Shown: positions 18,634-62,750 of the stretch, one piece after another | How the letters are laid out: each line of letters opens with the position of its first letter | Position numbering within the stretch: the first letter of the stretch is position 1 | Assembly (NCBI GenBank): GCA_003550305.1 | Contig: QKYT01000220.1 | Span: 61,103 to 125,102 of the forward strand | DNA length: 64,000 bases | Source: Glomus cerebriforme | Lineage: Eukaryota > Glomeromycota > Glomeromycetes > Glomerales > Glomeraceae | Reading direction: 5' to 3' | The notes under the pieces: generated by a model | Seen by the model: only the letters and a program-made list of their open reading frames with translations | Databases searched by the model: none | Told to the model about the DNA's origin: nothing | Translations under genes and position numbers: made by a program

Positions 18634-20113
<1,480 letters not shown>

Positions 20114-20274: not shown

Positions 20275-22949
20275 ATGACTGGTAGTTCTTCGAAGCCCAA
20301 AAAACAAAATAATAAAAATAATAAATCAAAATCAAATGAAATATCTTCTGATGATCCACGTTTCATCCATGTACGAAAGGACCCGCGATTTGTCCGTCCG
20401 AGAAAAAAGGACGTAAAGATCACTTTAGACGATCGTTTCGCTCATATGCTAACCAGTGAAGAGTTTAACGATTCTCGTAAGTTTTATTTTTTTTTATAGT
20501 TAAAATTACCTTCTATATGAAGTTTTCGCATTCATATGTAATGTATTATATTTTTTTAGTTAAGGTTGATAAATACGGGAGGACAATTTCATCAGATAAA
20601 GTTGCTAAAGAATTAAAACGATATTATAATTTAAAGGAGGACGAAGATTTATATAAAGATGAATCCTCAAAAACAATCAATAAAAAGGAACATGTTACTA
20701 CGGAGGAAGAAACAGATGAAGAAAATTTTGATTCTCCAATGTTTGATCTTGCTAGAGGTGAAGGAATTCTTGAGTCATCTTCCGATGACGAAGAGGAATA
20801 TATTCATACTGAAAGTAAATATTTAGTTGAGAAACAGGAATCTAGTGAATCAGATGAGCAGGTTCCATTAGGAGAGGAGACTCATCGACTTGCTGTAGTC
20901 AACCTTGATTGGGATAATGTAAAAGCATCCGATCTTATGAAAGCATTTAATGGTTTTACACCAGATGGATCTATTATATGTTCTGTAAAAATTTACCCGT
21001 CAGAATTTGGAAAGGAACGTATGGAAAAGGTAACTTTTTTAGTATTTTGATTAAATAACCTTTCAAAATTCAATTAGTTTTTATATTATAGGAAACACGA
21101 GAAGGCCCACCAAAGGAAATTTTTAAATCCATGTCATTCTCATCTGACCGTAATTATGAGGAAATTAATGATATCAATAATGATAATGGAGAAGAATTTG
21201 ATACAGAAGCGCTAAGAAAATATCAATTGGAGCGACTTAGGTTCGTAAATAATTTAATTTAGCCACTTTTATATTGTTGCTAATCAAATTTATTTATATA
21301 GATATTATTATGCCGTTGTTGATTGTGATACTGTCGAAACCGCTCATCATATTTACCAACAATGCGATGGAGCAGAATTTGAAAGTACCTCTAATTCCTT
21401 AGATCTTCGTTTTATACCCAATGACATGGAATTTAATGATGAACCAAAGTAATCAAATTATTATATTTATGTTTAGTATTGTTTGATATAATTAAATATC
21501 AATGAAAAATTTATCTGCTATTTAGAGACGAATGTTTCCAAGCACCTGATATATACAAACCCGTCGACTTTGTCACCGAAGTAAGACATTTTAATTTTTA
21601 TGTTTCAATTTTTCATATAATTTATTTAATAAGATATAATTTTATTATGTATATATATATATTAAGGCATTGCAATATTCAAGTGTGAAATTGACTTGGG
21701 ATGATGACGATCCAGATCGGGTTAAAACTATACGTCAAAAATTCACGAAAAAAGATGTTGATGATATGGATTTTAAAACTTATCTTGCTTCGTCTAGTGA
21801 GGAATCAGATGAAGATGTTGAAGAAACAAGGCAAAAATATAAAAATTTGTTATATGAAACTGAAAATGAAAATATGGAAATAGATCAGGAAATGGAAATT
21901 ACTTTTACTCCTGGATTGAGTGAAGTTACTGCTTTGAATTCAGAAAAGGTTTGATAAATATATTCATTTAAATATTATATTAGTTCGTTTTATTAACCTA
22001 CAATGTTTGCAACAGGCCATTGAAAATGAAACGAGTTTGGAAACATATTTGCGTAAACAACATGAAAAACGTAAAGAAAGGAAAGCCGCAAAAAAGAAAG
22101 AAACAAAAGATACAAGCGATGGTAGATTTTTTTCCTATAATAATTTTTTGTTAGTTATTCTTGTATTTTAAGATGATATTGACAGAAATTCGAACAATCT
22201 TTATTAGTAAGCTCGAATACTTCAAAGTCAAAATCAAAAGACGCGCGTAAATTGTCTAAAGAGGAACATAAGGAAGCTGATCGACAAAAGGTTGAATTGG
22301 AGCTTTTAGTTCTGGATGATGAGAAAGAGGGCCATATGCATTTTGATTTGAAGGAGATTATAAAAAACGAGAAAAGAAAGAGTAAAAAGAAAAAAGGCAA
22401 AAAAGATATTCAGGATGATAATTTCGAAATTAACATTAATGACCCTAGATTTGCGGCAATACACGAGTCACATCATTTCGCAATAGACCCTTCCAATCCA
22501 CAGTATCCTTATTTTATTTTATTCTCTTCCGTTTTTAAAATACACATATATATATTCAACCTTGATTACGTTAACTTGCTAATAGATTTAAAAAGACTAA
22601 ATCTATGAGTAAACTTTTGGAGGAACGACAACGGCGCCAGTCTGAATTAAGTCAACAGAATTCAAATACAAATTTCGAGGTAATGGAATAAAAAATTAGG
22701 AATAATAATCAATGATTTTATTAATCGGACATTTCATTTATATAACAGGATGATAAGAATCCCAATATTCCATTCAAAGATTCAAGTTTATCATTATTAG
22801 TAAATTCTGTGAGTATTTTGATTGTAAATAAACAAGATACTTTACTATTTCAATAATATTAAATAATATCTATTTTATAGGTAAAACGAAAGAATGCATT
22901 AGCTATTGAAAACAATCAAAAAGGAAAACGTCGAAAAGCCAAATCTTGA
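20275..22949 (+). CDS. ESF1: Pre-rRNA processing protein Esf1
   Basis: Roughly ten exons encode a very acidic and basic nucleolar protein. N-terminal [20 protein letters not shown], then [11 protein letters not shown], are hallmarks of Esf1. Acidic blocks follow, then the conserved core [18 protein letters not shown] segment (here [19 protein letters not shown]), [31 protein letters not shown] and [20 protein letters not shown]. The C-terminal NUC153-type patch is [11 protein letters not shown]. Esf1 is needed for 18S rRNA maturation in the small-subunit processome. The end is Lys/Arg-rich (KGKRRKAKS). A perfect 8+8 hairpin (22966-22982) lies just after the stop. The exon joins I checked keep frame. 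Around 22120-22210 the exact junction is less certain. Confidence 0.92.
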
Positions 22950-31103: not shown

Positions 31104-33597
31104 CTAAAGGTATTTCCGGTACAGTCCATACCATCCCCAAAATGCCCACCATAATGTTTGTACATTCGTCCATATGGCTAAATTTCCATATTGTTTTGCT
31201 AACCTTATCAAAGATGATCCCCTCCATAACCAAAGTGCAAATCCCAAAATCCAATATCTTCTCTTCCATTTTCTTTCCCCCGTAATTACCATAAACCAAA
31301 TTATAACTGCTCCAATTGACCAAACTAATTGGTCTTCTAATGCATATCGCCATGTATCAAATATCGGAAGCCATTGAGAATTAAGTTGAATTCCAAACAA
31401 CCAAAATAGTCCAGTTCCATCATCTCCTTCTTCAACAGCAGATGGTATCATATTTCCCATAAACCATGGAAGTGTAATTGATGATAGAAGATAAAAATAA
31501 AGCGTATAAAAGAAAATAGGTTGTGATGCTAATAGAAATGTTTTTCTAAAATATGATTGAATAAAAGTTTTTGGAGAAATGTGGTATGATACAAGTAGTA
31601 GTGGATGATGTGGATGGAATGTAACGTAAAGTTTCGTAAAAAGCATGTTTAAAGTTGTAAACGAATGTCCAAAAATATAAGTAGTTTGAATCTATGCAGT
31701 GAAAATTTTGCGATAAATAAATAGGCATATATGTTAAACTAAATTCAAATGTAAATTGCAAACTTACTACTAAAGCCCAATCGAGACCGATCAAAAATTC
31801 ACTTATACCACCTCGCATGTCACTTCTTTCTCCATCAACGCGGAATATCACCTTACTTTCTCCCTTTTGTCCCATTTTATCACGTGCTTTTACAACAATA
31901 TAATGTTCTTTACTATCATCAAATTGTTTAGGATTCCATGGTGATACCCAAAGTGGGATATAGTCTTTATCCTCTTTCGAATTGCCTCTGTAAATAACCT
32001 GTTCATTATGCTTTTTTCCATCCAAAAATATTTCAATCTCCTCAATATCATGATCTGACCATATTAATAATCTCACGTGGGAACTATCTTTAATTCTATT
32101 TACGGGTTCATGATATTTCATTAAATATCTTGAATCTTTTGGATTTGTCACCAAAATCACTGGAGGAAAAGCTATTTTTTCTGGTAATACCGAAAATCCT
32201 GGTGCAGATGGTGGTGGTATCTTCAACGGAATTTCGTTCAATGGTAATTCTATATCTGCAAAACTTACAAGATCGTGATCAATTGCAAGAATACGATAGA
32301 TAGCATTAACTTTCATGTCTGCTAATTCCAACTCTAAATAATGAGTTGGTTGATATGTTTGTAGCTTATCTCCCAAACCTATATAGATAAGTATGATAAG
32401 AATTTTATGATAGGGTAAATTATAAACCGGACGATCAAACTTTATATTTTGCTTACCCCAAGCTAGTTTATGTAAATGACCGCACATATAAACACTAATG
32501 TATCTTGATATATCGTTAAATGTTTCACCTTTTGAGGTTTTTCCATATAATGTTGTCGCAGTTGGATAATGTGCAAGCTAATGGAAAATATATATGATTT
32601 TTTAAATAAATGTATTAAGGTACATTTACTCTTAATATTATTACTTACAAGGAATGTGTGATTGGAAAACAATGACGCATTAGATAATTTATTAGCCAGT
32701 CGATCCATGTCATCCGTCTCATAATAACCGAAAAAGTTAAAAGGTCGAGCTACTCCCGCTTTAGGACTTTAATAGAAATAGCAATTATGTATAAAAATTA
32801 AATTTAGTATTGAATGTATATAAAACACATTCTACATTAAGTACTTACCAGGCATCAATTCCGACAAATCTATAACGACCAAAATCCTTTTCGACCATAA
32901 AGTCGAAGCCTTGTTGTTTTTCTACGCCATACTTTTTATACATATTTTGTTCACTTCCCCATGATCCTACGTTGAAACAATCATGGTTTCCACGCAGATC
33001 ATGCCAGAATCCCGGCCGATTAAGAGCACCTGATTCCTATGTAATTATAAGTTAAATGTTGATAGATCAGCAACGCTAGTTAAAATTAGGCTAAGTACCT
33101 GCAATGCAGTCTGATATGTAACCCATTCGTCAATGAATTGTCGTGAAGTTACAAAATGTTCATCCTTGGCGTCAGTCAAATCACCAGTGACTAAAACGAA
33201 TGCAGGTGACCGAATCACAGGGAGTACTGTCGCAAGGAAATGTAAAAAATGTGAAGTACCGCCAGTTTTCTGAAATTTCGATATATGCAGGTCGGAAATC
33301 TAAATAGTGATCCAACTTCAATAAAAGTTTGTCATTAAAAGAAACAGAAAACTTTAAATAGTATACCTGCATAAAATAAAGTAGATTATCTCTTCTGTCA
33401 CCCATGGTGATATTATCGAACCTCTGTAAAACCGGATCAGTACTTGTCAAAGGCGAAGTATGTGATACATCTTGACTCTCCTTTTCGCTTACATTTATAA
33501 AAAGCGAAGAAGTTGCTTTTCTATGTAAGTGATATGCGCGAAACCAACAGAATAGTGTTAAAGGAATCAGTAAAATTGGTAATAAAGTTCCACGCAT
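31104..33597 (-). CDS. TMEM62-like membrane metallophosphoesterase
   Basis: Large protein of about 700 residues. The N-terminus has a signal-anchor helix (LLPILLIPLTLFCWFRAY). The calcineurin-like phosphoesterase domain shows all metal motifs in order: SDLHISKF, VTGDLTDAKDE, LRGNHDCFNVG, LAHYPT and CGHLHKLAW. A beta-rich region follows (Ig-like, with RLLIWSDHDIEEIEIFLDG). The C-terminal part is a polytopic membrane domain of about six or seven helices, tryptophan-rich near its end (WTNVQTLWWAFWGWYGLYR). This layout is that of TMEM62 and related eukaryotic proteins, whose substrate is not established. The catalytic domain is expected on the luminal or outer face. The start at 33597 is the only ATG giving the signal anchor. 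Confidence 0.88.
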
Positions 33598-44962: not shown

Positions 44963-47564
44963 ATGGCACCGTCACGCTCTTTCTTTATTATTTGTATTTT
45001 AATAATTACCATATCGGCAAACACTTTTGCATTTTATTTGCCAGGTGTAGCACCTCGCGATTATAAAAGCGGCGATGAAGTAGAAGTACATGTTAATTCC
45101 CTCACACCGATGATGGCAGCACAACAACTTAAATCTGTTATTCCTTACGATTATTATTATAAACCTTTCCATTTTTGTCAACCAACCGAATTAAAGAGTC
45201 AGCCCGAATCTTTAGGAAGTATTTTATTCGGTGATCGTATTTTCAACTCTCGTTATAAGGTATGAATCTAACTTTTACGTCCGTCTATTAATTATTCAAT
45301 GCACAGTTTTTTGCAAATCATTATTTGAATATTGTTTTCTTTTAAAAATTTAATAGCTTAAAATGCTGGACGACGTAACATGCGAATTTCTTTGCAATTC
45401 AACAGTTCCCGCCGAAGATGCCAAATTCATTAATCAGCGTATAAGAGAAAATTATGCTATTAACTGGCTCATTGACGGGCTTCCAGCTGCTAGTAAAAAA
45501 TTGGATCCTAAGACCCGTACTCCTTTCAACAGTATCGGATTTGAATTAGGAGATACTACACCTGAACCATCTTTACATAATCATTATGAAATAACAATTC
45601 AATATCATTCTCAAGATAATAACAAATACCGTGTTGTCGGTGTAATTGTAAAACCATCCAGGTATAAAGATTTAATTGAATATTTACGATATTATTTGTT
45701 CAAAATCAACATTAATTAATTCTTTTTGCAACAACAGTCGAAAATATGAATCAGAAAAAGAAGCTAGAACCTGTGATTCTAATAGCAACAGATTAATATT
45801 GAGCGAAAGTAGTTCTAATGAAGTATTTTACACTTACAGCGTAATATGGAATGTGAGTATTTTTATATATAATAATATTAAGCATTTTCTTTAAAATTAA
45901 TGTCATAATTTAAACTTTTTATTTAGTCCTCTCCAACCGCGTGGGCAACACGTTGGGACAATTATTTACATACTTTCGATCCGAGAATTCATTGGTTCAG
46001 TTTGGTAAATTCTATCGTCATTGTGTTGTTCTTGACGGGTATGGTTGCTATGATATTACTTCGTGCTTTGCACAAGGATATTTCTCGATACAATCAAATT
46101 GAGGACAAGGTATTTATTTCATTTTATGTAATTTTTTTTTTGTTGATTTCTCATAATAATTAATTTTCCTATATGAATTTATCTGTATAAATTTATAGGA
46201 AGATGTTCAAGAAGATTTTGGATGGAAATTGGTTCATGGTGATGTGTTCCGTCCTCCAGCAAATGTCATGTTATTGTCTGTTTTATTGGGAAGTGGTGCA
46301 CAGTTATTCTTTATGACTGCTGTTACACTCGGTTAGTATTATAATTTCGATCAAGCAATTATGTATATTAAATTGTAATTAATCGTAAATTATTATTGCA
46401 GTCTTTGCCGTTCTTGGTTTCCTTTCACCTTCAAATCGTGGTTCCTTAGCTACAGTAATGATCATATTTTATATGCTGTTTGGTTCTGTAGCTGGATATG
46501 TTTCTGCTCGCGTATATAAAATGTTTAACGGTGATTCGTGGAAAAAAAATGTTTTTTTGACAGCTTTCTTATTCCCATCGTAAGTAATTGATTGGTTTAT
46601 TTGTTAATTAAAAAAAAAATCAATTTGAAAACTAATCCAAAATGTTTTTCATTTGCATATAGACTTATTTTCACTATTTTCGTCGTTCTAAATTTCTTCC
46701 TAGTTTCGGCAAAGTCTTCTGGTGCTGTCCCTGCCACCACACTATTAGCTATAATTGGATTATGGTTTTTAATATCCGTTCCTTTATGTTTCATCGGTTC
46801 ATTTTTCGGATTCAGAAAACCTGTATGTTTAAATTTTGATGATAACGTGTTTGATGAGAAAGAAAAGCGAGATGAAATTTTATATAACTCGTTTCTTTAT
46901 TTGCTTTAGAAAATTGAACATCCAGTTCGTACAAACCAAATCCCACGGCAAATTCCCGATCAAGTATTTTACTTGCGGCCAATTCCTTCCATGCTCATGG
47001 GCGGTGTACTTCCATTTGGTGCTATCTTTATCGAATTATATTTCATAATGAACAGCATTTGGGGAAATAAAGTATATTATTTGTTCGGATTTGCCGCTTT
47101 GGTATTTGTAATTCTTACCATTACGTGTTCGGAAGTCACAATCTTATTGTGTTACTTCCATCTATGTGCAGAGGTTAGTTTGAATACGTCATTAATTTTC
47201 AAATGTGAGTTTCTGTTTATTTACTTTTTTATTTTACATCTTCTAGGATTATCATTGGACTTGGAGGGCCTTCTTAACATCTGGAGCATCTGGATTATAC
47301 ATTTTCATCTATTCTATTATGTATTTCGCAACTAGGTTACAAATTACATCTTTAACAAGCACAGTTATATATTTTGGATGGTCAGGAGTTATGAGCTTAA
47401 TGTTTTTCGTTCTTACTGGTACGTTATTTTTTTAATGCAAATTTATAAAATAGATATCTTCCAAACTAATTATATTTTTACTCGTGTATCATCTAGGAAC
47501 AATTGGATATTTTGCATGCCTTGCTTTCATTCGAAGGATTTTTATGAGCATTAAGGTAGATTAA
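44963..47564 (+). CDS. Transmembrane 9 superfamily protein (nonaspanin, EMP70 family)
   Basis: Multi-exon gene for about 630 residues. A signal peptide ([17 protein letters not shown]) is followed by [24 protein letters not shown], the nonaspanin opening. A luminal domain with paired cysteines comes next (FCQP, CEFLC). Nine transmembrane helices follow, starting at the segment [22 protein letters not shown]. Other marks are [41 protein letters not shown]-like [29 protein letters not shown] and the C-terminal SIKVD. The final Lys-x-Asp is the COPI-binding Golgi retention signal of this family. TM9SF proteins act in Golgi and endosomal sorting and adhesion, and yeast members affect copper balance. 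The leader ATG at 44963 gives the signal peptide directly. Confidence 0.95.
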
Positions 47565-48349
47565 AGAAAGATAACGATAAGATTTAGTGAAGTTTGTATC
47601 ATAAATCAAAAAAGATTGAATATTCTGTATATGTGTATTACATTTGTTATACCCTTATAGTTTATATTACGAGAATTGATGGGAAATTTTTAAGGTTAAC
47701 CAAATAAAGGTTTTTTTTATTTTATTATTGAATAAATCGACCAAGATTTTTAAATTAGTTTAATTATAATGTAGTTGGATAATCAATTGATTTGATGTGA
47801 TTTTCCAATTTAATTTTGTATTTTTTTTTAGATAGTTATTTTTACAATATATATTAAAAAATTATTATTGTTAATTTTCCAGGAAAATTATATCATTTAA
47901 ACTTTAATTTATTGTTGCAATTTGATAATTAAACGTCTTTACTGGAAATCTTCCTATGCATAAACTATTATCTTACCGTAGAAAGATAATCTTTGTTATT
48001 AATAACTGAGTACAAAAGATTCAAAACCATGCGAAAAAGTTTTAGATTATACATATATGATTGTAAACATTGATAATGGCGTTGGGCGAAGATTGGCGTG
48101 TATTGTGGGTTTATATATTGTGTAACATTTGACGCACATTATGAATACTCATCATTTTAATGTAATGGAGTAGTCCGTGTGCCGAGATAAACTTGATCTT
48201 TTTGCATAGATAAGATCCACCATCACTGATAAGACGCGCCAGAGCTTGTAAACCATTTCGTCTAGCGCCCAACTATCAAAGAGTTTGTGTCTGATTCTTT
48301 TGTATAAAGAGAGACATTTTAATCATTTTTCTCCTTAAAATTTCTTCTC
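47565..48349. other. Spacer and promoter region of CPA1
   Basis: Up to about 48000 the sequence is AT-rich 3' flank of the TM9SF gene. From about 48070 to 48300 base composition becomes noticeably more GC. This part contains GTTGGGCG (about 48082) and its inverse CGCCCAAC (about 48267), plus the GATA motifs listed separately. It is the likely core promoter and transcription start region of CPA1. No RNA gene is recognised. Confidence 0.5.
48185..48233. promoter_or_regulatory. Cluster of GATA-factor-like motifs upstream of CPA1
   Basis: Three GATA words within 50 bases: GATAAA at 48185, GATAAG at 48209 and GATAAG at 48228, all on the same strand. HGATAR is the binding site of fungal nitrogen-regulatory GATA factors (AreA/Nit2/Gln3 family), which would suit an arginine-biosynthesis gene. 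In an AT-rich genome such words also arise by chance, so this is tentative. Confidence 0.4.
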
Positions 48350-48501
48350 ATGTTTAACAGATTTAACACACCAACTGCAAACGATTATTTTGATATCCAA
48401 GGTTATTATTTTTTTTTTTATCATTTACTATCGCTTTCTACATATTAATTAACTTTTTTTATTTTTCTATCATAGTCTGGAAGTCCTCATCAGAATTTTA
48501 A
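48350..48501 (+). CDS. Arginine attenuator peptide-like uORF, split by an intron
   Basis: The ATG is at 48350. Exon 1 is 48350-48401 and exon 2 is 48476-48501, separated by a 74 bp intron (gttatt...ctatcatag with a long T tract). The spliced frame is 25 codons plus TAA, and ends 253 bases before the CPA1 start. The peptide has Asp12-Tyr13 and Trp19-Lys20, the spacing of the fungal arginine attenuator peptide (Neurospora Asp12, Tyr13, Trp19; yeast D13, Y14, W20-K21). Its tail is WKSSSEF, where yeast has WKTSSH. In those fungi the nascent peptide stalls the ribosome when arginine is abundant, lowering CPA1/arg-2 translation and exposing the mRNA to decay. Unspliced, the frame would lose the Trp core and stop at 48448. 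Residues 15-17 (DIQ) differ from the usual S-D-H. Confidence 0.82.
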
Positions 48502-48754
48502 AATTTTTTTAGAAACTCTTTTTCATTTTTGTTGTTTCCTTTGCGCGTTTTTCTGAAAAAAAAAAAAAAATTATAATTAATTTACATATTTCAATTGTAC
48601 ATAAATCAAAAAATTTTAAACCACAACCACATCCACTTTTTTCCTTAATATTATACCCTTATTATTATACACTTTATACCATTATACTATCCAATCTTTT
48701 TTTTTTAAAAAAAATACTTCTATTTTAATTTTATTTAAGTTATAAATTGTAGTA

Positions 48755-50222
48755 ATGTTTTCCTTAATCTCAATCAAAACCCCTTTTCATCGTTCTTCCG
48801 CGATCAAGCCTATCATCTTGCGTTGTTTGGCAACAGTCAGTGATAAACCCTTCACGATCGCTGCTCCTCCACCAGCACCTTATGCTAATGTAACCTCGAA
48901 GCCGCCTCGTGCAGTTTTGAAAATGAAAACGGGTGAAGTTTTTCACGGTACTTCTTTTGGTGCAGAACTCCCAACAGCTGGTGAAATTGTTTTCACCACT
49001 TCTGTCGTTGGTTACCCAGAATCAATGACTGATCCCTCCTATCGGGGTCAGATTCTTGTGTTCACCCAACCACTGATCGGTATGTTATCATCATCATCTC
49101 ATGTAATAATTCTCAAAACTTTTGAACTAAAATTTTATATTTACAACAGGCAATTATGGAGTTCCTGGTCTTTTTAAGGATCAGTATGGGCTCCTCAAGT
49201 TCTTCGAAAGTGATAGAATACAGTGCGAAGGCATAGTCGTCAACGACTATGCCACTCGCTATTCTCATTGGACAGCAGTGGAATCTTTGGGCGAATGGTG
49301 TGCGAGGCACGGAGTTCCAGCTATCACGGGAGTTGACACTCGGGCCATTGTTCATTTGTTACGTGATCGAGGGTCAACTCTCGGAAAACTTCTCGTTGGT
49401 GATGATGCTGCCAACGAGAATTTTTCGAAAATTCCTTTCGTTGACCCCAATGAGAGGAATCTTGTTTCAGAAGTCAGCACTGCGGTCCCTGTTTCTTACA
49501 ACCCTTTCGGGGACATCAAGATTGGTGTAATTGGTTTGTAATTTAAAAATTTTTTGTCGATTTTTTTTTCCAAAATTTTAACGAAATGTTTTTTTTTTCT
49601 TCTTCCTTCAAAAGATTGTGGCGTCAAAAATAACATCTTAAGAAGTTTAGTTAAACGCGGGGCGTGTGTCACAGTTTTACCATGGAACTTTGATTTTATG
49701 AAAATAAGTCATGAGTTCGATGGGATCTTTGTCTCGAATGGTCCCGGAAATCCAACCAAAGCCATGGAAACCGTGCACAACATCAGAAAAGCTTTAACAT
49801 CCTACAACCGTCCTATCTTCGGTATTTGCATGGGGAATTTACTGTTGGGAATGGCAGCCGGACTTGATGTACGGAAATTGAGATTCGGGAACCGAGCTCA
49901 CAATGTCCCAGCATTGAACATGCTGAATGGGAAGTGTCAAATCACTTCTCAAAATCACGGGTATGCTTTGAAAGATGATGTTTTCCCCCCAGGTTGGAAG
50001 AAGTACTTTGTCAACGTCAACGATGGTTCCAATGAAGGAATCATTCATAAATCTGCTCCCTTCAGGAGCGTCCAATTCCACCCGGAAGCAAAAGGAGGAC
50101 CAGAAGATACGGACTTCCTGTTTGATGAATTCCTTGACCAGGTCCGTTCCGAGAAAGTCAAACGAGAAGGAAACAAATTTTTTGTTCCCGAAACAATTCA
50201 CCACGAAACAGCACGAGTCTAA
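48755..50222 (+). CDS. CPA1: Arginine-specific carbamoyl-phosphate synthase small chain, mitochondrial
   Basis: Three exons (48755-49079, 49150-49533, 49615-50222) encode 438 residues. The N-terminus is rich in Ser, Arg and Lys without acids ([20 protein letters not shown]), a likely mitochondrial presequence. The CPSase_sm domain follows ([59 protein letters not shown]). The glutaminase domain has NGPGNP, the nucleophile Cys in [21 protein letters not shown] and the His/Glu pair in VQFHPEA. It splits glutamine and passes ammonia to the large subunit for arginine synthesis. The residue four after the catalytic Cys is Leu ([10 protein letters not shown]), where most relatives have Gln. Separation from a pyrimidine-pathway fusion protein and the upstream attenuator-like uORF support the arginine-specific role. 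Confidence 0.95.
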
Positions 50223-50540: not shown

Positions 50541-51627
50541 TTACCTATTCAAATATTGATGTGATGGCATTCGAATCACAATACAATCCTCATCGGTTCC
50601 ACAAGACCTTCTTGCTCGCTCAAAATCATTCATTGAAATCATACAATATTGCTCCGTAATTCCAGGATCACGATATATAAAACAATTAGAGTTTGGGTCA
50701 AACCCGATAAGAACAATAAAGTGGCCTATTGTCAATAAACAAATAATTTATTAAAAATCTTAATTATTTGACAAAATGAAAATCCAGTTTTTAATACTTA
50801 CCAACGTAATCGTTCACTCTTAACTTATCTAAAATATAATCAAAACCACTCCATAGCGAAGCGCAACATAGTTGTTGAATCTTTTTGGGTAATATTACAA
50901 TCAGCTACTTACGCAAGAAATTGTTAAAATTCATAAACATACCTGACATAATTGACATTTTAAAAACCGAGAATTCACTAAAGCTATTATGACAAACTTA
51001 GAATTAAATAAAAGTCGTCTGAAATTTTCAAGAGGAAGTATCCTATGATTAGATACATATTTTAATATATAAATATTATTTCGGAGTTTTTTCTAATTGG
51101 GTGTTAATCATACACCAGAAAGTTTCAAAACGCACATCCGTATAACATTAACGTTATTATTCTTTGCTATTGAGAACAGTCTATTAACTCGACGCTCATC
51201 TTCGTCAAATGCTTGATAAAGAAAAAGAATGCTGACGTGAATTTAGAGAAAAAGCAAATAAGTAAATGGATTTAAAAAGAATCAAGTTTCTATAGTACAT
51301 GATCTATAAAACTTGTCGTCAGCTCTGGCCCCTGTATGCGTGGTATAAAACGTAAAGTCAAGGTCAGGAGCATAATATCGTAATAAAAACGCCTAAAAGA
51401 AAACAAGGAGTTTGATAAACCCGTTCAAATTGTCCAAAACGACTTCTAGTTCTTACCAAGTCTATTGTCCAAATACTAGAGACTGCGACTTTTTTATTAA
51501 GTTCCCATAAATTTATCCCAAAAAACCCTAAACCTCGTAAAACCATACAAACACAAGCAGGTCCACAATCAAAAGAATTTTGCTGTAACACATGAGGAAC
51601 TATAAAGTGTTCAATTGGGGTGTCCAT
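50541..51627 (-). CDS. GUCD1-like protein (C39/papain-like fold, former guanylyl cyclase domain)
   Basis: Six exons or so. The N-terminus has HFIVPHVLQQNSFDCGPACV, where the Cys sits as in cysteine-peptidase-like folds. Next come LRYYAPDLDFTFYTTHTG and DDKFYRSSFDEDERRVNRLF, then VIRMILPLENFRRLLFNSKF and VIIALVNSRFLKCQLC. The end is VGHFIVLIGFDPNSNCFIYRDP and SCGTDEDCIVI. This order matches the GUCD1 family found in plants, animals and fungi. The family was named for guanylyl cyclase activity reported in plant members. The Cys-His pair (DCGPAC and GHFIVL) instead suggests a peptidase-like hydrolase fold, and true activity is unclear. I had to place an exon at about 50986-51039 to keep the ALVNSR strand in frame, with the donor GTGCGT at about 51130. 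Confidence 0.8.
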
Positions 51628-53403: not shown

Positions 53404-53441
53404 AGTTGTCAAAAATTTCGCATCTTCAAACAAAAAAAAAA

Positions 53442-56400
53442 ATGAGATATAATTTTTTAGTACTAATTACTTTGATAGCGTTATTTGCGTTATCATTAAC
53501 TGAGGCCGCCGTAATTGCGATTGATTACGGAACCGATTGGTTTAAAGTTGCACTCGTAAAGCCAGGAATACCTCTTGATATTGTGTTAAATAGGGACTCT
53601 AAGCGTAAAACTCAATCAGCTTTGACAATACGTGGTGAAGAAAGAATTTATGGTTCCGATGCTGTTAACCTTGTGAGTGAAAATAAAACGATGGGTATTT
53701 TAATAAATGATAGCATAATATTTTATCATGATCATGACAAAATTTATATTGCAATTTAATCGTTGATCCATAGATAACGCTTGAATTGATATGAATTTAG
53801 GGTGCTCGGTTTCCACTTAATACATATTTTAGTATCAAAAAGGTTCTTGGACGATTAGTTGATGATAAAACCATAAAAGATTATCAATCAGTTTTTCCAA
53901 ATAAAATAATACCGGATCCAATTCGAGGAACAGTCGTTTTTCAACATAATGAAACTACTGTTTTCACGGTAGAAGAACTGCTTGCAATGCAATTTACTCA
54001 TGCCAAAGAACTGGCCGAAGTAACTGCACAAGAAACCATCAAAGATGTTGTAATTACGGTATTTATTGAATTTCAATGTACAATTGTAAAACGTTAATCG
54101 TATATATATATATAATATATATATATATTGAAATCCCGATTTATGCATATTTAGGTGCCTTCATATTATAATCAATTTGAAAGGCAAGCAATTTTAGATG
54201 CTGCCGATCTTGCCGGTCTACATGTTCTTTCTTTGGTCAATGATGTAACAGCCGGTGCGTTACAAAGTGTCCGTTAGTTTGTATTATTTTTAATTTAATT
54301 TTATATTAATAATTGATCTGAATTAAATTAGTTGGATTGAATTATGCTATCTCTCATTATACTTCGTTCACGGAAGAACCGCAGTATCACGTGTTTTATG
54401 ATATGGGTGCTGGTAGTACCAAGGCAAGCCTGATAAGTTTCAAAACATCAAATGTAAAAGATGTGGGACGCTTCAACAAAACAATTATCAACCTTGATGT
54501 GTTATCAGTTGGCTATGACCGATCTCTTGGTGGACAAGAATTTGACATTCGCCTTCAAAGACACTTTGCAGAAGAATTTGATAAGAAATTTAGCGGGAAA
54601 TTAAAATCATCGATTTTCACATCGGAACGTGCCATGACTAAACTTTATAAGGAAGCTAATAGAATAAAACAAATTCTTAGTGCAAACACAGATGCTATTG
54701 CTTCGGTTAGTATCAAAGTTTAATAATTATTTCAACATACATAATATCTGAATTATGCATTAAATTTCAGATAGAAAACTTACACGAAGAGCATGATTTC
54801 CGTCTCGCTGTAACGAGAAGTGAACTTGAAAAAATGACGTCTGATCTTAGAAATCGTGTCGGTGGACCTATTAAAACGGCATTGAATAATGCTAAATTGA
54901 CTTTGGTAAGTCTTCTATTCACGCTATAAATTACTTTATTGAAATTTATTTACGCATTTTCCTGCTTATAATAGGCTGGCATTCGATCTTGCGTGTTAGT
55001 TGGTGGTGGAGTTCGTGTTCCATCAATTCTAGCTGAGCTCAAAGATATTATTGGAGAGTAGGTACAGCTGAAGTTTTATTTATATTCTTATAATATGAAA
55101 TATATAATTTTATTATTATTTATAGGGATAAGATTGCTCAGAATGTGAATGGCGATGAAGCTGCTGTACTTGGTATGTTTTGCTCTTTATGCTTTTGGAT
55201 GTTGTACATAATATTTAATTTTCGATTGTCTTTTTTATGACAGGTGCTGCCTTTAGAGGAGCTGGATTAAGTCGTCAATTTAAAGTAAAGGAAATCAAAG
55301 TTAAAGATATAACTCCTTATTCTATTGAAGTTAATCATTCTTCTGAACCAAAAGAGTCTGAAGATGGTAACAAATAAGTGCCTTATTACTAAGATTTTAA
55401 TTTTAAACAAATCGAAGTTTTTCTAATGAATGTTGTTCTTTAGGCACTTTAAAATCTAAAGAATATCATACGGTGTTGTTTAATCAATTTACTGCAGTTG
55501 GAACGCGTAAAATAATGAGTTTCCCACGTATAAGCGATTTCAATTTTTCGTTAAATTACGCTATATTAGATGAGGCCACGAAAGATTTTGGGTCTGCAAA
55601 TATTGCAATTGCGAAAATTACTGGTTTAACTGCCGCCATTAAACAATTTAACGATGATGGCGTAGACCGCCCTAAAGTTAAAGTTACTTTGCAATTGTCT
55701 GAATCTGGTATAGTTTCTGCTACGGATGCAATAGCGACTATAGAACAACAGTCTTTCACAGGAAAGTAGAACCTAAATTTTAATAAATTGTTTTAAATTA
55801 TTATTATTTAAAACTGTTTTAGTTAATTTTTTTTCTCTGGGGAACAATTTTCATATAATAGATAAATTCAAATCATTTTTTGGTGTTAATGGAAACAAAT
55901 CAGAAGAATCAATTAAAGAAGTTCCATTACCAGATGTGAGTTGAATGAAGATTGAATTATTTCCTTTAAATTTGAATAAATTAATAAATTATATATAATA
56001 ATTATATAGGAAATACCAAGTTCCTCCGTGAATGCATCAGAACCTACATCGGAAGCAAATGCAACTCAGACCAATGTTAATGAATCTGTACAAAAACAAA
56101 CCAAAATAGAAACGATAAATTTGAATCTTGAGGTAGAATATGTTGGCATTAAGCCTTTGGGCGTAAATGAAAAAGAAGAATCAATCAAACGGTAAATTGT
56201 TGGGTTGTTTTTTTTATTTCATATATATTTTTTTGTTTAGTAATATTTTATGAATAATTAGACTTCTTGCAATGGATGCTTCTGATCGCCAACGACGAGC
56301 TCGCGAGGAAGCAAGAAATAGCTTAGAAGCTTTTGTTTATCATGCACAGGATTTCCTTCAAAATGAAGTAGTATTACAAGTTAGTACAGACAGTCAACGC

Positions 56401-61553: not shown

Positions 61554-62750
61554 TCAATGACCATGTCCATGTTCAAATTGTAAAAGTAGAGGCATAAACA
61601 TTCCCAAAAGCATGAATCCAACGTGCGATTTCTTCATCTTAATAATATTATGACCATTAAAACCATTATCTTTTCCATTTCCACTTGTAACATCTTGCAT
61701 TACATGCATCGCAACATACAAGAAAGTTCCACCAGAAAAAAGTAACAATATTGCAGTCCACCATTTCATTCCAATTGGATTTATTTCACCACTTCTTTGT
61801 AATAAAGAATATGTAAGTATTGCAGATAAAGGAGCAGCTAAAGAGAAAGTGAGCAAATGTTTACGAATTTGACGACGAGTATATGCTTCACGAAGTAAAA
61901 TTGTTGAAAGACCAAAAGCTGCAGGAGCTTTATGCAACATAATAGCTAGAAAAACTATAATCTCAAGAGCTGGTTGACTCGCAGAAGCACCAAGAGCAAT
62001 CCCATCCGCGGCAGCGTGTATTACAAGTCCAATAGTTGCGGAAGCTGGTTTCTTATGTATTGAAGAAGAACCACCCAACATTTCATGATCATCATCATCC
62101 CGATCTCCAGAATTAGCCAAAGAACGAAGTTCAGTTAAACTTACAACATTTCCACGTGAATGATTATGACCATGAGATGAATCAATTTGATCAATTACAA
62201 ACATCATAGCGAAACCAGATATTAATGCGAATCCAATATAATGATGAATCGCACGATCATGATCATGATCATTATCATTATCATCTGGATTATTATCTGG
62301 AGGTGTAGTATTATCAGGATTATCTGGTAATGGTTTATTAGGATTAGGTATATCAGGAGGAGTATCTTCTTGACGTTTTATAGAAATTTTCATGGTCCTT
62401 TTTTGTAAAAAAGTTTTAAAAATATTATTATTATTATTATTATCAGAATCTTCATTATTTAAATTTATATTATTATTCCAAATATTACGTTTATCAAGAA
62501 TATTATCATCTATATTTGTTGGTAAATTACTAGGATTAATATCCTTGAATGATTCTGCAGTATATAAAGTTTCAATTCCTTCAGGTATAATTACAATTAA
62601 TGATGTTCCAACTAAAAGACCGACTCCAAATGCAGATATTGTTCGTAATCTATCTTCAGAAAGATGAAATGCTAATGGAATACTTCCCGCCAGAAAAGAA
62701 CCAATAAACATTGTTATCGAAAGAAGAAACAGCCATAAGAAAGTCTCCAT
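61554..62750 (-). CDS. ZIP-family metal transporter, ZIP9-like
   Basis: Single-exon ORF of 398 codons. Helices are visible at about 5-27 (FLWLFLLSITMFIGSFLAGSI), 38-58, then a large Asn/Asp/His-rich cytoplasmic loop (about 70-165, including DDNDNDHDHDRAIHHYIG). Metal-site helices are IGLVIHAAADGIALGASAS (HxxxD) and IMLHKAPAAFGLSTILLREA (HKxPxxFG). The C-terminal SHVGFMLLGMFMPLLLQFEHGHGH closes the protein. The motif choice (HAAADGIALG and HKAPAAFG) is that of SLC39A9 (ZIP9), which sits on Golgi or plasma membrane and moves zinc. The C-terminal HGHGH and the His-rich loop may bind metal. Repetitive AAT runs make the loop (62390-62470) expandable. Confidence 0.92.
   Translation of the reverse strand: METFLWLFLLSITMFIGSFLAGSIPLAFHLSEDRLRTISAFGVGLLVGTSLIVIIPEGIETLYTAESFKDINPSNLPTNIDDNILDKRNIWNNNINLNNEDSDNNNNNNIFKTFLQKRTMKISIKRQEDTPPDIPNPNKPLPDNPDNTTPPDNNPDDNDNDHDHDRAIHHYIGFALISGFAMMFVIDQIDSSHGHNHSRGNVVSLTELRSLANSGDRDDDDHEMLGGSSSIHKKPASATIGLVIHAAADGIALGASASQPALEIIVFLAIMLHKAPAAFGLSTILLREAYTRRQIRKHLLTFSLAAPLSAILTYSLLQRSGEINPIGMKWWTAILLLFSGGTFLYVAMHVMQDVTSGNGKDNGFNGHNIIKMKKSHVGFMLLGMFMPLLLQFEHGHGH

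Follow-up and report, generated by a model that had tools for sequence, protein, structure and literature searches.

A candidate arginine attenuator peptide, diverged and split by a putative intron, in the CPA1 leader of Glomus cerebriforme

Does the leader of the CPA1 gene of Glomus cerebriforme encode an arginine attenuator peptide (AAP), and if so, in which form of the transcript? As described in PMC11550727 and PMC7049704, an AAP stalls the ribosome at the stop codon of its uORF when arginine is high, which lowers CPA1 translation and leaves the mRNA open to nonsense-mediated decay; with arginine low, CPA1 is reached by leaky scanning. The locus considered here lies in a window of 64,000 nucleotides (the whole stretch of contig QKYT01000220.1 that was analysed), which has a GC content of 29% and comes from a genome of 112.5 Mb. 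Its features are collected in Table 1.

Table 1. Features of the CPA1 leader and gene, in window positions
Feature	Position	Strand	Basis or remark
Possible TATA box of CPA1, TATAAA	48303-48308	+	sole TATAAA in ~48100-48360; weak evidence, AT-rich DNA
uORF exon part 1: ATG, 16 codons and one base (MFNRFNTPTANDYFDIQ)	48350-48401	+	frame reading
Putative 74-nt uORF intron, AAG/GTTATT...CTATCATAG	48402-48475	+	compared with 36 reference introns
Alternative 111-nt intron, acceptor 48512; 31-aa peptide without Trp19	48402-48512	+	acceptor score and leader options
uORF exon part 2: rest of V18, W19 K20 S S S E F, and TAA at 48499-48501	48476-48501	+	frame reading
CPA1, CPS small subunit, 438 aa, three exons, intact	48755-50222	+	spliced model
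CPA1 exons	48755-49079, 49150-49533, 49615-50222	+	gene model

Joining 48350-48401 to 48476-48501 yields MFNRFNTPTANDYFDIQVWKSSSEF, a peptide of 25 aa. An earlier, sequence-only reading had proposed an ATG-initiated frame of 25 codons that becomes AAP-like once a 74-nt intron is removed, and its coordinates and peptide were both reproduced. Without splicing, the frame that opens at 48350 gives a different peptide of 32 aa; Asp12, Tyr13, Trp19 and a basic residue 20, at the spacings seen in AAPs, are present only when the intron is removed. Once past an ATG at 48165, the only ATG before CPA1 begins is the one at 48350; CPA1 itself starts 253 nt beyond the uORF stop. ATGs are scarce in the interval 48166-48754 (1 versus 5.4 expected, P 0.012), and the scarcity is less clear in 48353-48754 (0 versus 2.3 expected, P 0.056). 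At the -3 position the uAUG has C and the main CPA1 ATG has G, which fits leaky scanning. The placement of the uORF, in the leader of a CPS small-subunit gene, is that of known AAPs and presupposes an mRNA start upstream of 48350.

The identity of the downstream gene bears directly on this placement. The CPA1 protein scored over the cut-off for PF00988 and PF00117 in a Pfam search, and among 120 listed relatives, the best of 8000 scored, the 13 best are 71-85% identical to it. Those listed include sequences from Diversispora eburnea (73%), Funneliformis geosporum (71%), Geosiphon pyriformis (72%), Ambispora gerdemannii (71%) and Acaulospora morrowiae (75%, a partial sequence), as well as environmental clusters (74-85%). 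By these protein relatives the lineage is glomeromycotan. The longest contigs of the environmental clusters (P0001-P0008), at 1.7-2.0 kb, contain a complete CPA1 frame and so resemble spliced transcripts. The names of these relatives differ, being arginine-specific in several sources and CAD in others; relatives with the CAD name are ~400-470 aa long, the length of the CPS small subunit alone. Where the sequence-only reading took the gene for the arginine-specific small chain, the small-subunit part of the assignment stands; the arginine-specific part has the names given to relatives in several sources behind it, though others call relatives CAD. A genome search with PF00988 gave four places: two CPA1 exons, a strong match (C871) and a weak, sub-cut-off match (C699). 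C871 also bears CPS large-chain domains, which makes the pyrimidine CPS its most likely identity; CPA1 thus looks to be the sole arginine-specific small subunit. The CPA1 leader itself is present in a single copy in its own genome.

For comparison with known AAPs we used the Neurospora arg-2 and yeast CPA1 peptides. Met1, Thr9, Asp12, Tyr13 and Trp19 (uORF peptide numbering) are invariant across the three. Asp12, Tyr13, Trp19 and Lys20 align at the residue numbers of the Neurospora peptide, in agreement with the earlier proposal. D12, Y13 and W19 are critical AAP residues, and Spevak and colleagues reportedly found in 2010 that the AAP requires Tyr and Trp. The likeness to the Neurospora crassa arg-2 and Saccharomyces cerevisiae CPA1 AAPs (PF08252) extends to a uORF of the same gene, to length (25 codons here, 24 and 25 there) and to the succession of Met1, Thr, Asp-Tyr, five residues, Trp, a basic residue and a short tail. 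By BLASTP, 10 of 25 residues are identical to the yeast peptide.

The differences are equally specific. Residues 15-17 are Asp-Ile-Gln in place of Ser-Asp-His, a departure that had been pointed out before and was found again on rereading the spliced peptide; residue 14 is Phe, the stretch after Trp is one residue longer than in either textbook peptide, and the coding region is split by a putative intron. With HMMER filters on, the Pfam model PF08252 (Leader_CPA1) gave no match to the uORF peptide at E<=10; as controls, the yeast and Neurospora peptides scored 58.8 and 56 bits. Run in six frames over the genome, a method blind to spliced peptides, the same model produced two sub-cut-off matches elsewhere, and a comparison of the uORF peptide with PDB sequences gave 0 matches at E<=10. 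The element has the expected gene, position and critical residues of an AAP but lacks Ser-Asp-His and a PF08252 match, and we therefore describe it as a diverged AAP-like uORF and not as a certified member of PF08252. It most likely acts as an AAP.

Comparable elements are found beyond yeast and Neurospora. In PMC7969011, changing the conserved Asp of a yeast-type AAP (D13N) removed the arginine effect in yeast extract. The CPA1 uORF of Cryptococcus, as described in PMC7049704, has strong ribosome occupancy with low main-ORF translation, and its mRNA rises fivefold without Upf1. It resembles the present case as an AAP-type uORF on a CPA1 orthologue outside Ascomycota; it differs in being from a basidiomycete. 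The uORF of Toxoplasma gondii TgApiAT1, according to PMC8370653, likewise encodes an arginine-responsive, AAP-resembling peptide in which Asp19Asn largely removes the response. Unlike the uORF peptide described here, it has 33 aa and precedes an arginine transporter gene in an apicomplexan, and the authors of that study would regard a function shared with the AAP as convergence.

We then asked how often a leader of this kind would yield such a resemblance by chance. Leader options were defined as peptides of at most 40 aa that 48250-48754 can encode either directly or after removal of a single GT-AG intron of 40-150 nt; there are five in total, one of them AAP-like. Each was given a domain score over residues 9-20, the minimal functional domain of the AAP. 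The spliced uORF peptide scores 32, the next leader option 12.5 and the two textbook peptides 63 and 65.5. When the leader was shuffled 400,000 times with dinucleotides preserved, 32 was reached once, a leader-specific chance of ~2.5e-6, and 28 was reached 13 times; the pattern DY-x5-W[KR] appeared anywhere in 2 shuffles, and in none with the correct position and length. Over both strands of the window, a score of at least 32 was obtained by 1 of 19,966 options, the uORF peptide itself.

Genomic background gave a similar picture. The set comprised 592 strand tiles, each 505 nt long and free of N, drawn from the window without the CPA1 leader on the + strand and from L080-L108 of the same genome; none reached 28, and the maximum was 24.5. 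Background inference rests on this set, from which tiles with N were skipped, and not on an earlier sample of 20 pieces in which 0 of 22,156 options reached 28; 9 of those pieces were all N and some others largely so, with N codons scored as alanine. In two control leaders the best domain score was 1.5 among 17 options for a putative CPA2 (at C1110, with a start codon picked by the analyst) and 8.0 among 60 options for an EMP70-family gene. A full-length HMM built from the two textbook peptides placed the uORF peptide at the top of the 13,801 distinct peptides of at least 12 aa in the window, at 8.8 bits versus 8.1 for the runner-up (E 0.91 over the set), with 2.1 bits for the retained-intron peptide and 1.8 for the alternative-acceptor peptide. 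The leader-specific chance by this model is ~3e-4 (6.6e-5 per peptide times 5 options). Because the full-length margin is narrow, the case for an AAP leans on placement too and not on sequence alone: no leader other than that of CPA1 would be expected to carry an AAP.

To judge the putative intron we assembled a reference set of 36 introns from this genome, of which 25 come from CCT chaperonin genes, 9 from the EMP70-family gene and 2 from CPA1. The CCT introns are all those that passed a filter, 24 in which the length agrees exactly with the profile and one, in L100, with a difference of +1; the L100 intron had two tied candidates, of which the first was taken, and exon pairs that failed the filter were left out. 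The EMP70-family and CPA1 introns were placed by eye, from the frame and knowledge of the families. Splice donors in this set (L100-L107 and the window) are loose, with G at +5 in 19 of 36 and A at +3 in 30 of 36. The reference introns measure 62-124 nt (median 76) and have a mean AT content of 80.2%; the putative uORF intron has 74 nt and 83.8%. Its donor is the best of 11 GT sites in 48350-48754 and scores above 6 of the 36, its acceptor at 48475 scores above 15, and the sum of the two is above 12. The GTTATT donor occurs in 0 of the 36 reference introns. Acceptor scores are 6.23 at 48512, 4.53 at 48475 and 3.69 at 48752. The putative intron thus appears ordinary for this genome in both size and base content, although its scores among the 36 introns and the 48512 acceptor would allow splicing to be imperfect or alternative. 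Residues 1-17 are common to the spliced, retained-intron (32 aa) and 48512-acceptor (31 aa) peptides, and Val18-Trp19-Lys20 is found only in the 48402-48475 form among the five leader peptides. The AAP-like identity put forward by the sequence-only reading is backed by placement, by the chance statistics and by an ordinary intron.

Taken together, we consider it probable, at roughly three chances in four, that the CPA1 leader bears a diverged, intron-split AAP by which, at high arginine, ribosomes are stalled on the uORF stop codon. Computed here were the reading frame, the gene model, the beyond-chance resemblance and the plausibility of the intron; stalling, leaky scanning and decay are carried over from yeast, Neurospora and Cryptococcus. 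Splicing of 48402-48475, followed by initiation at the weak-context uAUG, would produce the 25-aa peptide. At high arginine the nascent peptide, with T9, D12, Y13, W19 and the basic residue 20, would hold the ribosome at the uORF stop; fewer ribosomes would then get as far as the CPA1 start, 253 nt further on, and nonsense-mediated decay of the mRNA may follow. With little arginine, ribosomes would scan past the uAUG or terminate normally on the uORF, and CPA1 would be made.

Other readings of the leader share some of this evidence. The uORF might be an inherited AAP frame that lost sensing together with Ser-Asp-His at 15-17 and now imposes a fixed lowering of CPA1 translation. The missing Leader_CPA1 match and a 12-residue domain score about half that of the textbook peptides (32 versus 63 and 65.5) point in this direction, but the critical D12, Y13 and W19 are kept and the frame, length and stop are intact, all of which decay would be expected to break early; we regard such a relic as unlikely. 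That an unrelated leader frame and an imagined intron merely look like an AAP is very unlikely: the small HMM margin over other window peptides and the lack of a Pfam match would suit this idea, but for this leader the chance is ~3e-4 by the HMM and ~2.5e-6 by the domain score, and none of the 592 strand tiles attains 28. It is hardly credible that the frame is instead an N-terminal extension of CPA1, made by splicing donor 48402 to acceptor 48752 and running in frame into the ATG at 48755. Although the join reads ...DIQ-V-MFSL in frame (by eye) and the acceptor scores 3.69, it needs an intron of 351 nt, against 62-124 nt in the 36 reference introns, 18 aligned relatives start within the first 11 alignment columns (their starts being themselves predicted), and the AAP resemblance would be left unexplained.

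Splicing could also do more than assemble the peptide. In this variant of the favoured reading, whose odds overlap with it, only mRNA spliced at 48402-48475 would encode the arginine sensor. Three peptides (spliced, retained and 48512) can all be read from the sequence, the donor falls in the lower fifth of the 36 introns, and the 48512 acceptor outscores 48475. Since the retained-intron and 48512 peptides keep residues 1-17 and lose Trp19, regulated splicing would toggle arginine control. The donor nevertheless scores above 6 of the 36 introns, fungi usually use the nearer splice acceptor, and constitutive splicing of the uORF intron offers a simpler account, which makes a splicing gate distinctly unlikely. 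Equally doubtful is its fuller version, that three mRNA forms share a single uORF start and just one of them senses arginine, with alternative splicing setting the arginine feedback in nitrogen-exporting hyphae.

If the leader does encode a diverged, intron-split AAP, arginine attenuation would extend into Glomeromycota, and the AAP either predates the split from Dikarya or arose twice, as the Toxoplasma authors suggest for their case. Among the literature matches listed, no title or opening of an abstract mentions an AAP in Glomeromycota or Mucoromycota or an intron inside an AAP uORF. Because a diverged, intron-split sequence is missed by the Pfam model and by a six-frame scan, other AAPs may be hidden in the same way. 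According to PMC4879785, arginine makes up >90% of the free amino acids of the extraradical mycelium in arbuscular mycorrhizal fungi and carries nitrogen to the root, so a brake on arginine synthesis, or its lifting, bears on nitrogen delivery to the plant. A working uORF would be a throttle on making the amino acid used to ship nitrogen towards plants, and its peptide would widen the sequence space for the requirements of an arginine-sensing nascent peptide.

Several further searches were made around the locus. Rfam (at gathering thresholds) and ARAGORN gave 0 and 0 matches over the window. Exact Gcn4-type TGASTCA sites are absent near CPA1; the window holds one, at 20771, versus 5.7 expected by chance. 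A search of viral contigs for DNA of relatives gave 5 pattern matches and no relative, and a scan of genome contigs found no fungal relatives, its 72 loci being titled bacteria or archaea with a best segment identity of at most 59%. RNA folding as the regulator was rejected, since the unspliced leader (48335-48755) folds no more stably than its shuffles: z is +1.34, and 91 of 100 shuffles equal or exceed it in stability.

The window also holds other gene families. Directly upstream of CPA1, at 44963-47564 (+), is the EMP70/TM9SF family gene that served as a source of reference introns; it has nine introns (by eye), ends in ...KVD, and two of its exon pieces match PF02990. Downstream lie a piece of a PF09778 (Guanylate_cyc_2) gene with a DCGPAC motif at 51364-51627 (-) and an HSP70-family gene at 53406-54723 (+), of which 54337-54720 matches PF00012 and 53406-53756 has no match at E<=0.001. 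Farther away are a piece of a proteasomal AAA ATPase subunit (PF00004, PF16450) at 19110-19820 (-) and a TMEM62-like frame with a PF24384 (Ig_TMM62) match at 31549-32487 (-). At 61554-62750 (-) an apparently intronless frame of 398 aa encodes a ZIP zinc transporter (PF02535) with a long Asn/Asp-rich stretch.
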